The notes beneath the pieces are model-generated. The model did not search any database. It was not told the origin of the DNA and was given only the letters and a program-made list of their open reading frames with translations. Made by a program: the position numbers and the translations under genes. A stretch of DNA of 35,941 nt from Gammaproteobacteria bacterium (GTDB lineage Bacteria; Pseudomonadota; Gammaproteobacteria; Xanthomonadales; Marinicellaceae), in assembly GCA_024280395.1 (NCBI GenBank), contig JAJRQG010000103.1, positions 1 through 35,941 of the forward strand, in the 5' to 3' direction. Of this stretch, positions 13,108-17,616 are shown in pieces (position 1 is the stretch's first letter; each line of letters opens with the position of its first letter).

Positions 13108-13359
13108 ATGAAATACACTAAATATTTAACATTGATTTCAATCATTTTATTAATCAACTCAAATAGCACTTCAGCATTTATTGAGACGGGGAGTCCAATT
13201 AATGATGGTGTATACGGATGTTATCATAATAATGAGGAAAGTTATTATGCAATAGTTGGTTTCGGAGAACAGTGTCCTATTGTACCTGTTTTACGGGAAA
13301 AAAATTATGATCCTCTAGACCACACTTGCAATGTAACAATAGAACCTTTAGGGTTTTGA
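13108..13359 (+). CDS. Small secreted protein with cysteines, unknown function
   Basis: This 83-residue protein has a signal peptide (MKYTKYLTLISIILLINSNS, cleavage probably after TSA) and a mature part of about 58 residues with three cysteines in DGVYGCYHN, GEQCPIVP and DHTCNV. A strong AGAAGGA ribosome binding site and a near-consensus promoter support expression. I recognise no family. The mature sequence is rich in Tyr, Gly and Asn and could be a small periplasmic or extracellular factor. It is the gene directly upstream of the hybrid two-component gene, on the same strand, with about 230 bp between them that contain several inverted repeats. Confidence 0.65.
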   Translation: MKYTKYLTLISIILLINSNSTSAFIETGSPINDGVYGCYHNNEESYYAIVGFGEQCPIVPVLREKNYDPLDHTCNVTIEPLGF

Positions 13360-13530: not shown

Positions 13531-13587
13531 TATAGTTTCTTAATTCTTATTATTAATGAATAGCCATTGATTTGGCTTATAATTTAA

Positions 13588-13779
13588 ATTGGCAGTCAAA
13601 TTAATACAATTATTTCATCAAATAAGCTTTTAATTATAATCTTTAAATTTTATTTATTAATTGCAGCTTTTAATTCAAATGCTACAGATATTAATTTTAA
13701 TAAGATTTCAAGCTTTAACCAACTGCCCAAACAAACTATTTGGTCCATCGCAAAAGATCAGGAAGGTTTTATTTGGTTT
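13588..13779 (+). other. Upstream coding extension of the hybrid sensor gene, no canonical start codon
   Basis: The frame of the hybrid gene stays open upstream of the first GTG to a TAA at 13585-13587. The extension encodes a convincing signal peptide (KLLIIIFKFYLLIAAFNSNA) and then the first propeller strand (FNQLPKQTIWSIAKDQEGF IWF), both expected at the start of this family. Yet the extension has no ATG, GTG or TTG. ATT codons at 13609 and 13612 sit where the family start should be, 25-30 nt after a TATAAT box at 13578-13583. Either translation begins at a rare ATT, or the start codon has been lost by mutation or sequence error. Confidence 0.7.
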
Positions 13780-16700
13780 GTGAGTGACTCTAATATATGG
13801 AAATACAATGGTCATACTATCTTTCCCATTCAAAACTCATTTTCTTCTTCTAATCTGACAAGCTTAAGAAAAATTCTAGTCGATAGCTTCGGAAACATAT
13901 GGATTGGAACGAAAAATTTAGGGCTACTCCGCATAGAAAACAATAAAATCGAACCTTTTATTGCTCAAAACAACAGCAGCATCAACTCCAATAAAATCAC
14001 AGCTATTTGTGATGGGAAAACAGGCCTATGGGTTGCTACAGATAAAGGATTAAACTTTATTAATTCTAATAATGAAGTTAAGAATTATAAATTGCCTCGT
14101 TCAACTCTAAAACTAACTAACCTTATTACCAGCATTGCTGATATTTCAGAACAAGAATTACTGATAGGTACTCAATCCTACCTGTTCACTTTTAATAAAC
14201 TTTCTCATAAGTTTACCAAACATGTATTAAATGGATTAAATAAAACATATATTAACATTGTATACAAAGATTATGAGGAGAATCAGTGGGTTGGTACCGA
14301 TACTGGTGTTTTTACTAAGGAAATTGGCAGTGAAGGTTTTAAGCCCTATTTTAGTAGTGCAATTAACTTTAGGATAAACTCAATAACCATAGATGATAAG
14401 TCTGTGTGGCTTGGCTCTGGTCTTAATGGCTTATATAGGATATCAAAACACGATTCTTCTATTATCAATTATCGCAACAATCCAATTGATGACTCTTCTA
14501 TTTCAGGAAATTCAATCTTGACATTATTAGACGATTCAAAGACATTATTTATTAGTAGTTTTCATGGCGGAATAAATTATTTTGATACAAAGGCATTAAT
14601 TTTTGGCCTTGAAAACAATTCAATTAATAGTATATATTGTGCTAAATCTGAGGTTTTTTATAACATTGATGTTGACGAAAGTAATAACATCTGGGTTTCT
14701 TCTGAAGCTGGCTTGATTGAGTATCAACAGTCTAGTGGAAAATGTATAAATTACCACTTAAATTTTCTTAAAAATAATGTCTATAGACACGATTCCCCTT
14801 TTTATTCTTTCAAAGATTCATCAAATAGAAGATGGATTACTTCTTCATCCGGTATTAGTTCAATTGATAAAGATACAGGTTTAATTGATACTTCTCTTCA
14901 ACCTAAATTTAATAAGGCTGTTTTATTCATGCTTGAGAAAGAAGAAAATTCATTCGTGTTAGGCACAAGAGATGGTTTGTATACGTATAAAGATCAAAAA
15001 TTTATCAAAATTCACTCAAAGGATGAACCTTTATTGAAGGCAGAAGTTCATAATTATCAAAAAAATAAAAATAATTATTTTTTTGCTACTAATTCTGGAG
15101 TAGCCATATTAGATAACAATAATAAATACAGTTTATATAGTAAAGTTCAATCACAATTACCCACGACAGAAATTCTTTCGCTCGTCATGAATGACAAGCA
15201 AGATCTTTGGGTTGGAACTTATAACTTTGGATTGTTTAAATTTAACAAAAAAGGAGACTTAATAGTTAGATATGATGATAAAAACGGACTAAACACAAGC
15301 CTAAGTATTTTCAGTATATTAAGCGAGGGAAACAACAGCCTTTGGATGGGTACAAACAATGGCTTAATACATCTAAACTTAAAAACCAACTTGGCGCATA
15401 CTTATCATAAAAATGACGGTTTACAAGGAGATTATTTTTTAAAATCTTCGTCTTTCAAAACGCCTGATGGAAAGCTCTATTTTGGTGGTAGAAATGGATT
15501 TAATTCTTTTTATCCAGAACAGATAAAACTAAATATTTCTCCTCCAAATATTGTTTTAACAAATTTTACTCGATTTGGCAAACCTGTTGAGTCAGGCGTT
15601 GAACAAAACGGGTTTTTACTTAAAAAAAATATTAACGATTTAAAAGAATTAACCTTAACTCACAACGATTACGTTATAGGCTTTGAGTTTTCAGCATTGG
15701 ATTTTGCTGACCCATCGCGCAATAAGTATGCTTATATGATGGAAGGGTTAGATCCCGAATGGATTTATACAAATGCCGATAATCGCCGGATTAGTTATTC
15801 CAATCTAAAACCAGGCGAATATACTTTTAGAGTTAAAGGCTCTAACAAAGATGGTGTATGGAATGAAAAGGGCAAATCTTTAAAGGTTGTTGTAAAACCA
15901 GCGCCATGGTTTAGCTGGTGGGCTTATATCATTTATAGTAGCGCCTTTTTTCTTTTGTTGTCTTGGTACATTAACCGAAAAAATCAAACCAATAAAAGAA
16001 TCACTAAAATGCTTCGAATTGAAGTCGCCAAACAGACTAAAGATTTGAAAACTCAAAAAACCAAGGTAGAATCCCTGTTGGCCAAGAAAAACGAATTGTT
16101 TGCCAATGTGTCACATGAGTTCAGAACGCCACTGACTTTGATATTGGGCCCGATTAATAAATTATTAAAAACCAACTTGCCCATCACGAGCATCAATGAT
16201 TTAAAAATGGTTAATCGAAATGCCAACCGTTTATTAACCATGATTGAACAAATGCTACAATTGGCCAAGGTTTCAAGCAATGAAAAACTTCAGTTTTTCC
16301 CACTAGAAACCAAGCCTCATATTTTTGATATTGTTAAATCGTTTACACCTCTGGCTCAACAAAAACGAATTAAATTGTCGTTAAACAGCAATGTTGAATC
16401 CGCCATCAGCACCACAATTGATGCATTGGATATCATCTTAGGCAACCTTTTATCCAATGCCATTAAATATACCCAAACGGGTGGCGAAATTACTGTTACC
16501 TCAGATATTACAAACAACAGAATCAATATTAGCGTGAAAGACACGGGTAGCGGGCTTGACCAACAACAACAAAAAGACATATTTAATCGCTTCAAACGCT
16601 TAGATTTACATCAAAACATACAAGGCATTGGTATTGGCTTAAGCGTGGTTGAAAGCTTGTTGAATGTTAACAATGCTAGCATGCAAATTGTAAGTAAGCC

Positions 16701-17616
16701 AGGCGAGGGCAGTACTTTTACGGTGAGCTTTAACACCATTGAAATGAAATTTGAAGAGCCGCTAGAAAAATCAGAGAGCTTGTTATTAAGACAACTTACT
16801 GTTGAAACAACAGATACCATCAGGGCAAACACTGACACACAACCTAAGCTAAGAATGCTTAAGGAAAACATATTAATCATCGAAGACAACGATGACATGC
16901 GTGCCCATATTGCCGATACTTTAAAAGACACTTATCACTGCTTACTTGCAGACCGAGGTAAAGCGGGTATAGAAATAGCAATTAAACATGTGCCCGATAT
17001 CATTATTTGTGATGTAATGATGCCAGAAATGGATGGTTTTCAAGTTTCTAGAGTAATGCGTTCGGATACTCGGACTTCACATATTCCTTTGATTTTATTA
17101 ACCGCTCTTCATGATAGAGAAAGTAGAATTAAAGGATGGCGCGAGCATGTAGATGTTTATCTAACTAAGCCATTTGATGCCCAAGAGCTATTAATTCAAA
17201 TTGAGAATGTTTTAGTCATTCGCAATATTTTAAAAAGAAAAGCTGGACAACAAATAATAATAGGGGAAAACAGAAACAGTGATCTTCCCAAAAGAGACCA
17301 ATTGTTTGTCAATAAACTCAATCAATTAATAGTAAAGAAATATAAAAACCCTCTATATTTACGCCCTCAATTAGCCAGCGATATGGCAGTTAGTGAACGA
17401 CAGTTACAGCGTAAATTAAAAGCATTAATTGATAAAAACCCTATGGATTTATTAAGAGAATATCGATTGAGCCAAGCTGCCAACATGCTAAAAGAGGGCT
17501 ATCAAGTTGGTGTCACATCTGATGCGTGTGGATTTAACTCTGTGGCCTATTTTTCACAATGCTTTAAAGCCCAATTTGGGTTGTCGCCGAAAGTTTATCA
17601 GACTACTTGTAAGTAA
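13780..17616 (+). CDS. Hybrid two-component system protein: propeller sensor, histidine kinase, receiver and AraC output
   Basis: At 1278 residues from the first GTG (more with the upstream extension) this is a one-protein signalling system. A periplasmic Reg_prop propeller with repeats such as IWIGTKNLGLLRI, LWVATDKGL and LWVGTYNFGLF covers residues 1-600. A Y_Y_Y domain follows at ~620-705 and one membrane helix at ~710-730. The HisKA domain has SHEFRTP (His779). The ATPase domain has NLLSNAIKYT (~889), DTGSGL and GIGIGL (~948). The receiver has IIEDND (~1032), phosphoacceptor Asp1078 and Lys1130. An AraC-type HTH covers ~1175-1278. Such proteins are typical of Bacteroidetes glycan-use loci and rarer in gammaproteobacteria. 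The GTG start would delete the signal peptide, so the true start lies upstream. No glycan genes adjoin; the neighbours are two small secreted protein genes. Confidence 0.93.
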   Translation: MSDSNIWKYNGHTIFPIQNSFSSSNLTSLRKILVDSFGNIWIGTKNLGLLRIENNKIEPFIAQNNSSINSNKITAICDGKTGLWVATDKGLNFINSNNEVKNYKLPRSTLKLTNLITSIADISEQELLIGTQSYLFTFNKLSHKFTKHVLNGLNKTYINIVYKDYEENQWVGTDTGVFTKEIGSEGFKPYFSSAINFRINSITIDDKSVWLGSGLNGLYRISKHDSSIINYRNNPIDDSSISGNSILTLLDDSKTLFISSFHGGINYFDTKALIFGLENNSINSIYCAKSEVFYNIDVDESNNIWVSSEAGLIEYQQSSGKCINYHLNFLKNNVYRHDSPFYSFKDSSNRRWITSSSGISSIDKDTGLIDTSLQPKFNKAVLFMLEKEENSFVLGTRDGLYTYKDQKFIKIHSKDEPLLKAEVHNYQKNKNNYFFATNSGVAILDNNNKYSLYSKVQSQLPTTEILSLVMNDKQDLWVGTYNFGLFKFNKKGDLIVRYDDKNGLNTSLSIFSILSEGNNSLWMGTNNGLIHLNLKTNLAHTYHKNDGLQGDYFLKSSSFKTPDGKLYFGGRNGFNSFYPEQIKLNISPPNIVLTNFTRFGKPVESGVEQNGFLLKKNINDLKELTLTHNDYVIGFEFSALDFADPSRNKYAYMMEGLDPEWIYTNADNRRISYSNLKPGEYTFRVKGSNKDGVWNEKGKSLKVVVKPAPWFSWWAYIIYSSAFFLLLSWYINRKNQTNKRITKMLRIEVAKQTKDLKTQKTKVESLLAKKNELFANVSHEFRTPLTLILGPINKLLKTNLPITSINDLKMVNRNANRLLTMIEQMLQLAKVSSNEKLQFFPLETKPHIFDIVKSFTPLAQQKRIKLSLNSNVESAISTTIDALDIILGNLLSNAIKYTQTGGEITVTSDITNNRINISVKDTGSGLDQQQQKDIFNRFKRLDLHQNIQGIGIGLSVVESLLNVNNASMQIVSKPGEGSTFTVSFNTIEMKFEEPLEKSESLLLRQLTVETTDTIRANTDTQPKLRMLKENILIIEDNDDMRAHIADTLKDTYHCLLADRGKAGIEIAIKHVPDIIICDVMMPEMDGFQVSRVMRSDTRTSHIPLILLTALHDRESRIKGWREHVDVYLTKPFDAQELLIQIENVLVIRNILKRKAGQQIIIGENRNSDLPKRDQLFVNKLNQLIVKKYKNPLYLRPQLASDMAVSERQLQRKLKALIDKNPMDLLREYRLSQAANMLKEGYQVGVTSDACGFNSVAYFSQCFKAQFGLSPKVYQTTCK

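Follow-up and report, generated by a model that had tools for sequence, protein, structure and literature searches.

A hybrid two-component sensor gene that lacks a canonical start codon, as do three of its relatives, and probably starts at ATT

A near-cognate codon pairs imperfectly with the initiator tRNA in the ribosomal P site, initiation factor IF3 acts against such pairing, and the yield is low; the gene infC, which itself has a near-cognate start, codes for IF3, i.e. for the factor that acts against near-cognate starts. AUU starts are already known as a kind, from infC, from pcnB and from cvfC1 of S. aureus. The part of PMC13009471 drawn on here describes the decoding of near-cognate starts as inefficient and modulated by IF3, and presents S. 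aureus cvfC1 (AUU) and ccpN (AUA) as genes with conserved near-cognate starts that lower the yield; the S. aureus starts have predicted extended Shine-Dalgarno motifs and have been shown by ribosome profiling and reporters. The AUU start of E. coli pcnB, as cited in that same part of PMC13009471, limits expression. An AUU start on a phosphorelay protein has been demonstrated for RcsD-Hpt of Y. pestis, in the consulted part of PMC10191623. As for the architecture of the sensor that is presented here, the hybrid two-component systems of Bacteroidetes, in the part of PMC3243724 drawn on, carry a Reg_prop propeller, YYY, kinase, receiver and AraC domains in one chain.

The window, i.e. the whole stretch of DNA that was analysed (35,941 nucleotides), belongs to a gammaproteobacterial genome of 3.77 Mb in 158 contigs, and contains an open frame with the following features:

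13588 to 17616, + strand: open frame of the hybrid two-component sensor, 1342 codons plus stop
15700 to 15897, + strand: Y_Y_Y domain, by domain profile match
16087 to 16275, + strand: HisKA domain, by domain profile match
16420 to 16731, + strand: HATPase_c domain, by domain profile match
16870 to 17202, + strand: response regulator receiver domain, by domain profile match
17371 to 17601, + strand: HTH_18 (AraC-type) DNA-binding domain, by domain profile match

Together with Reg_prop repeats, these domains are all located in a single chain, and the description of the gene as a hybrid two-component sensor in the first-pass annotation holds, as propeller, kinase, receiver and AraC output domains have all been found. 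The beginning of the frame is bounded and occupied as follows:

13585 to 13587, + strand: in-frame TAA that bounds the sensor frame
13612 to 13683, + strand: signal-peptide-like segment ISSNKLLIIIFKFYLLIAAFNSNA (translation) with a hydrophobic core, cleavage site placed by eye
about 13723 to 13785, + strand: Reg_prop repeat (PF07494) straddling GTG 13780, residues 46-66 counted from 13588
13780 to 13782, + strand: GTG, the first canonical in-frame start, within the propeller

Among the 65 codons from 13588 to 13782, GTG 13780 is the sole ATG, GTG or TTG in frame, exactly as had been claimed for the interval that begins at the TAA. The sequence before 13780 is coding, because a Reg_prop repeat spans the GTG and the tblastn matches to relatives extend through this region, and the earlier claim to that effect is borne out. 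The annotation had also placed a good signal peptide and the first propeller strand upstream of the GTG: the propeller part stands by the Reg_prop match, while the signal peptide is a putative one, judged by hydrophobicity (a mean of 2.6 over ten residues) and by inspection. Translation from GTG 13780, with a protein that works without export, has in its favour that this is the first canonical start in frame; such a start would cut into the Reg_prop repeat and remove sequence that is conserved in relatives, and the sensor domain would presumably remain in the cytoplasm, hence we regard this possibility as extremely unlikely.

Two more elements are located immediately upstream of the frame:

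13562 to 13577, + strand: short terminator-like hairpin (1 found against 0.1 expected)
13578 to 13583, + strand: TATAAT, a possible -10 box

The TATAAT, as well as the ATT codons at 13609 and 13612, lie where the first-pass annotation had put them, and two further in-frame ATT codons, at 13588 and 13600, precede these. Given its position, the TATAAT suggests a short leader; it is absent from the output of the promoter scan, which listed other pairs, and the number of promoter-like sites in this region barely exceeds expectation (4 against 2.5).

The comparison with relatives has been made at the protein level, because there is no close DNA relative of the sensor among the 11 genus genomes, where only its own locus and two short matches of 33-39 bases were found. 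Eight matches cover the N-terminus, seven at 55, 52, 51, 51, 49, 48 and 45% identity, plus G047:C70 at 46%; three others (G008:C201 at 67%, G005:C80 at 61% and L054 at 54%) stop short of the N-terminus and are uninformative on the start. In three of these eight best family matches with a readable N-terminus, i.e. G007:C281, G002:C25 and G001:C213, a canonical start is likewise lacking ahead of the hydrophobic core. The remaining five differ from the window gene: four have an ATG (G006:C22, G006:C29, G007:C85 and G047:C70), while in the fifth, G007:C50 (L247), the only candidate is a TTG within the hydrophobic segment, and a premature in-frame TAA occurs after 784 codons, ahead of the kinase part. 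In the wider family, which consists of 43 rows assigned by hand to the bacterial sensor family and corresponds to 41 distinct genes, 37 of the 41 have, by script, a canonical start upstream of the hydrophobic core and four have none, the window gene and the three relatives named above.

The N-terminus script has also flagged as start-less two Bacteroidetes hybrid sensors, L069 (near 2988) and L099 (near 2103), where an ATG precedes a long A run, out of frame with the gene; these are either slippage-controlled genes or homopolymer errors.

In 886 kb of the window genome (window included), 12 of 497 non-overlapping ORFs with a length of 200 codons or more have at least 30 codons before the first ATG, GTG or TTG; upon inspection, an ordinary canonical start follows the long open run in nine of the 12, and the real anomalies are three, the window gene, a GGDEF gene and a fabI-like gene. 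When the count is limited to ORFs whose N-terminus is hydrophobic, the script flags as start-less 10 of 199 in the window genome, of which two, the window gene and the GGDEF gene, are real cases by eye, and 3 of 65, 4 of 80 and 2 of 70 in the stretches of G007, G002 and G001, where all nine flagged ORFs have an ATG or TTG further down by eye; the control count is therefore 0 of 215 after inspection (9 of 215 by script alone), and spans three of the five genomes in which the eight relatives are located. Masked bases in some G001 stretches produced false long gaps. Compared with this control, the three of eight best relatives give a Fisher p of 3e-5, and the three of 40 family members besides the window gene give p 0.004, both values being too small on account of shared ancestry and of the choice of the eight. 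The start-less state of the window gene is not a lone defect, and it occurs more often than by chance.

A separate case in G001 is a short-chain dehydrogenase frame (L337, G001:C154, 4081-4827, minus strand) with 72 codons before its canonical start, which is another possible near-cognate start; it is without a hydrophobic core and lies outside the 215 control ORFs.

All four start-less genes have intact frames, of 1342, 1353, 1347 and 1317 codons, and all four carry Reg_prop, Y_Y_Y, HisKA, HATPase_c, receiver and HTH_18; comparison of the four gives a pN of 0.29-0.40 and a pS of 0.735-0.763, i.e. saturated. The tree places the window gene and G007:C281 in one group with the pair of G002:C25 and G047:C70, and G001:C213 outside it, and by hand parsimony the start has changed at least three times, while the start-less frames are still whole. 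Because the frames are full-length, with all domains, and protein change is far below saturated silent change, a long silence of the start-less genes is excluded by their sequences; a recent loss in the window gene's own lineage is possible. The alternative that had been offered by the first-pass annotation, taken here as a recent loss of the start codon by mutation that has left the gene silent or nearly so, would have to have taken place in parallel in several lineages whose genes all keep intact frames and all domains, and the recurrence and the constraint on these frames disfavour it; the ATG of G047:C70 at the aligned codon agrees with it, and the in-frame TAA of G007:C50 indicates that some copies may decay, but we judge it unlikely on balance.

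The position of the start has been sought in nine alignments of the N-terminal region, varying in method and length, which single out one candidate:

13612 to 13614, + strand: ATT, the most likely start codon by alignment, with ATT 13609 and ATT 13600 as alternatives

In eight of the nine alignments, ATT 13612 falls in one column with an ATG in G047:C70 and, in the sister gene of the latter, G002:C25, with an ATT, while one alignment disagrees altogether on this column; the codon before the aligned start is GTG in G047:C70 and GTT in G002:C25. It had been proposed that an ATG in relatives at 13609 or 13612 would support mutation and that a conserved ATT would support non-canonical initiation: both occur, the former in G047:C70 and the latter in G002:C25, and the presence of ATG and ATT in one column agrees with a start codon that alternates between the two. 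In G007:C281, the aligned codon is ATC in seven of the nine alignments, with ATT on both sides. In G001:C213, ATT AAA AAA TAT follows directly after the stop, so that Lys-Lys-Tyr is succeeded by a hydrophobic run, and an AGGA is located upstream of this ATT (duplex -4.0 kcal/mol). ATT 13600 had been considered as a conserved start, owing to an Ile-Asn-Thr string in three genes, and was dropped, as the alignments matched 13612.

The ribosome site points elsewhere, since ATT 13612 has no Shine-Dalgarno pairing (+0.9 kcal/mol) and ATT 13600 and 13609 both have a duplex of -2.1, near the genome median of -2.4 for 348 apparent ATG starts, about a quarter of which score +0.4 or worse; the better-supported ribosome site (13600/13609) is not that of the better-aligned codon (13612). 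No Shine-Dalgarno pairing was found at the candidate starts of G007:C281 and G002:C25. The exact start codon is unsure, because the A+T-rich signal-peptide region makes chance ATT codons common.

In both G002:C25 and G006:C22, strong hairpins are located at the start region, immediately 5' of the start; in the latter gene, a 14-pair hairpin followed by a T run has the first in-frame ATG in its loop.

Ribosomes could also enter these frames by another route, i.e. by reinitiation once a mini-frame has terminated at the TAA, by stop readthrough or by a frameshift from TTG 13589. Three start-less genes do have an in-frame start a few codons before the stop (TTG 13567 in the window, an ATG in G007:C281 and a TTG in G002:C25), and out-of-frame runs begin at TTG 13589 in the window (14 codons) and at a TTG in G007:C281 (8 codons); in G001:C213, on the other hand, the closest in-frame start lies 22 codons upstream of the stop, the upstream frames of the start-less genes are dissimilar, and a start codon within ten codons is, in our judgement, common by chance. 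A frameshift origin was set aside after out-of-frame starts near the stop had been listed for nine genes, with none near G002:C25. We hold a route of this kind to be improbable.

Other odd starts occur in the same assembly and genus. The infC gene in the five genus genomes examined has an apparent ATC start behind a clear GAGGA, and the genus therefore appears to use non-canonical starts. A RelA/SpoT-family gene (L216, G000:C27, from 8310, plus strand) has 29 codons without a canonical start, and its apparent start is an ATA within one codon of the position of the ATG in nine of nine relatives. A GGDEF membrane protein gene (L215, G000:C26, 7029-7898, minus strand) has 65 codons without a canonical start; its likely start is an ATC with the purine-rich AGGACAGG upstream, at a position where, of the seven best relatives whose N-terminus is complete, six have ATG and one has TTG. 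An enoyl-ACP reductase gene, which we take to be fabI (L207, G000:C22, 8119-8892, minus strand), has an in-frame TAA at codon 5 and is intact in nine of nine relatives. Such cases in the window assembly mean either that near-cognate starts are tolerated in the lineage or that there are base errors, and the stop in the fabI-like gene and the ATA in the relA-like gene lend some weight to an assembly error at the start codon of the sensor as well; three relatives from three other assemblies are independently without a start, and these are free of the base-error doubt, which makes an assembly error very unlikely.

The reading that we prefer, with a probability of about 70%, is that the gene is alive and is translated from a non-canonical codon, for which ATT 13612 is the most likely candidate, followed by ATT 13609 or 13600. 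This was the first of the two options of the first-pass annotation and is the best fit to the data; from the sequences, we infer that ribosomes start at ATT 13612, that the yield is low and that the low yield is of benefit. A start at 13612 would place a 24-residue signal peptide before a periplasmic propeller; the initiator tRNA would read AUU poorly, with no Shine-Dalgarno at 13612 to assist, and few copies of the sensor would be made. A low copy number might suit a sensor whose output is set by its ligand, and, with non-canonical starts recurring in this sensor branch, the dose of the sensor would be sensitive to IF3 and to the general accuracy of initiation.

Another element that may be related to the function of the sensor is located upstream:

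13108 to 13359, + strand: gene of an 83-residue secreted-looking protein with three conserved cysteines

Where the upstream DNA is long enough, a small secreted-looking protein gene with a C-x(1,2)-H motif is located 5' of the sensor in 30 of 44 rows, or in 27 of 41 when each distinct gene is counted once; among the other ORFs of 300 codons or more in the stretches that were analysed, 11 of 682 have such a gene, where the criterion was written after examples had been seen and the 682 still contain possible sensors of this family. Three invariant cysteines are common to 12 aligned examples, and Pfam and NCBIfam scans of these 12 proteins gave no convincing match (the best E values were 0.0043, under the Pfam cut-off, and 0.058). 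The small secreted protein and the sensor may be a ligand-sensor pair. A broader and rather doubtful proposal is that a sensor branch paired with small secreted cysteine proteins, as possible ligands or inhibitors, is held very scarce by AUU starts that receive little Shine-Dalgarno support or none, in which case the dose, and with it the choice of the active pair among many paralogous ones, would follow the level of IF3 and the accuracy of initiation.

If the ATT start is true, 4-kb sensor genes can persist over long evolutionary times without a canonical start, and the ATG and ATT versions of one start codon form a natural set in which start choice can be related to sensor dose. Gene callers that are limited to ATG, GTG and TTG would remove the signal peptide and misplace the protein; the ORF listing used here began at 13780.

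In comparison with known systems, the window sensor has the domain layout of the Bacteroidetes hybrid two-component systems, as given in the part of PMC3243724 consulted, but it occurs in a gammaproteobacterial genus, 3' of a small secreted-protein gene. The likeness to infC that had been suggested is partial: a near-cognate start would be common to both, the one of infC being conserved and apparently ATC in this genus, but infC has a GAGGA upstream, whereas ATT 13612 is without a Shine-Dalgarno. The same lack of Shine-Dalgarno support sets ATT 13612 apart from S. aureus cvfC1 and ccpN, as described in the part of PMC13009471 drawn on, with 13600/13609 near the genome median; the E. coli pcnB differs in that its product is not a sensor. 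RcsD-Hpt, in the consulted part of PMC10191623, resembles the window sensor in having an AUU start on a phosphorelay protein, the start in the window being deduced from sequence; unlike in the window sensor, the RcsD-Hpt start is internal to a frameshifted gene and has a predicted ribosome site. Among titles and abstract openings, searched with limited wording, we found none that reported a hybrid sensor of the propeller type with an AUU start. What is unusual here, relative to these systems, is the recurrence within one sensor branch, together with the poor ribosome site at the best-aligned codon.
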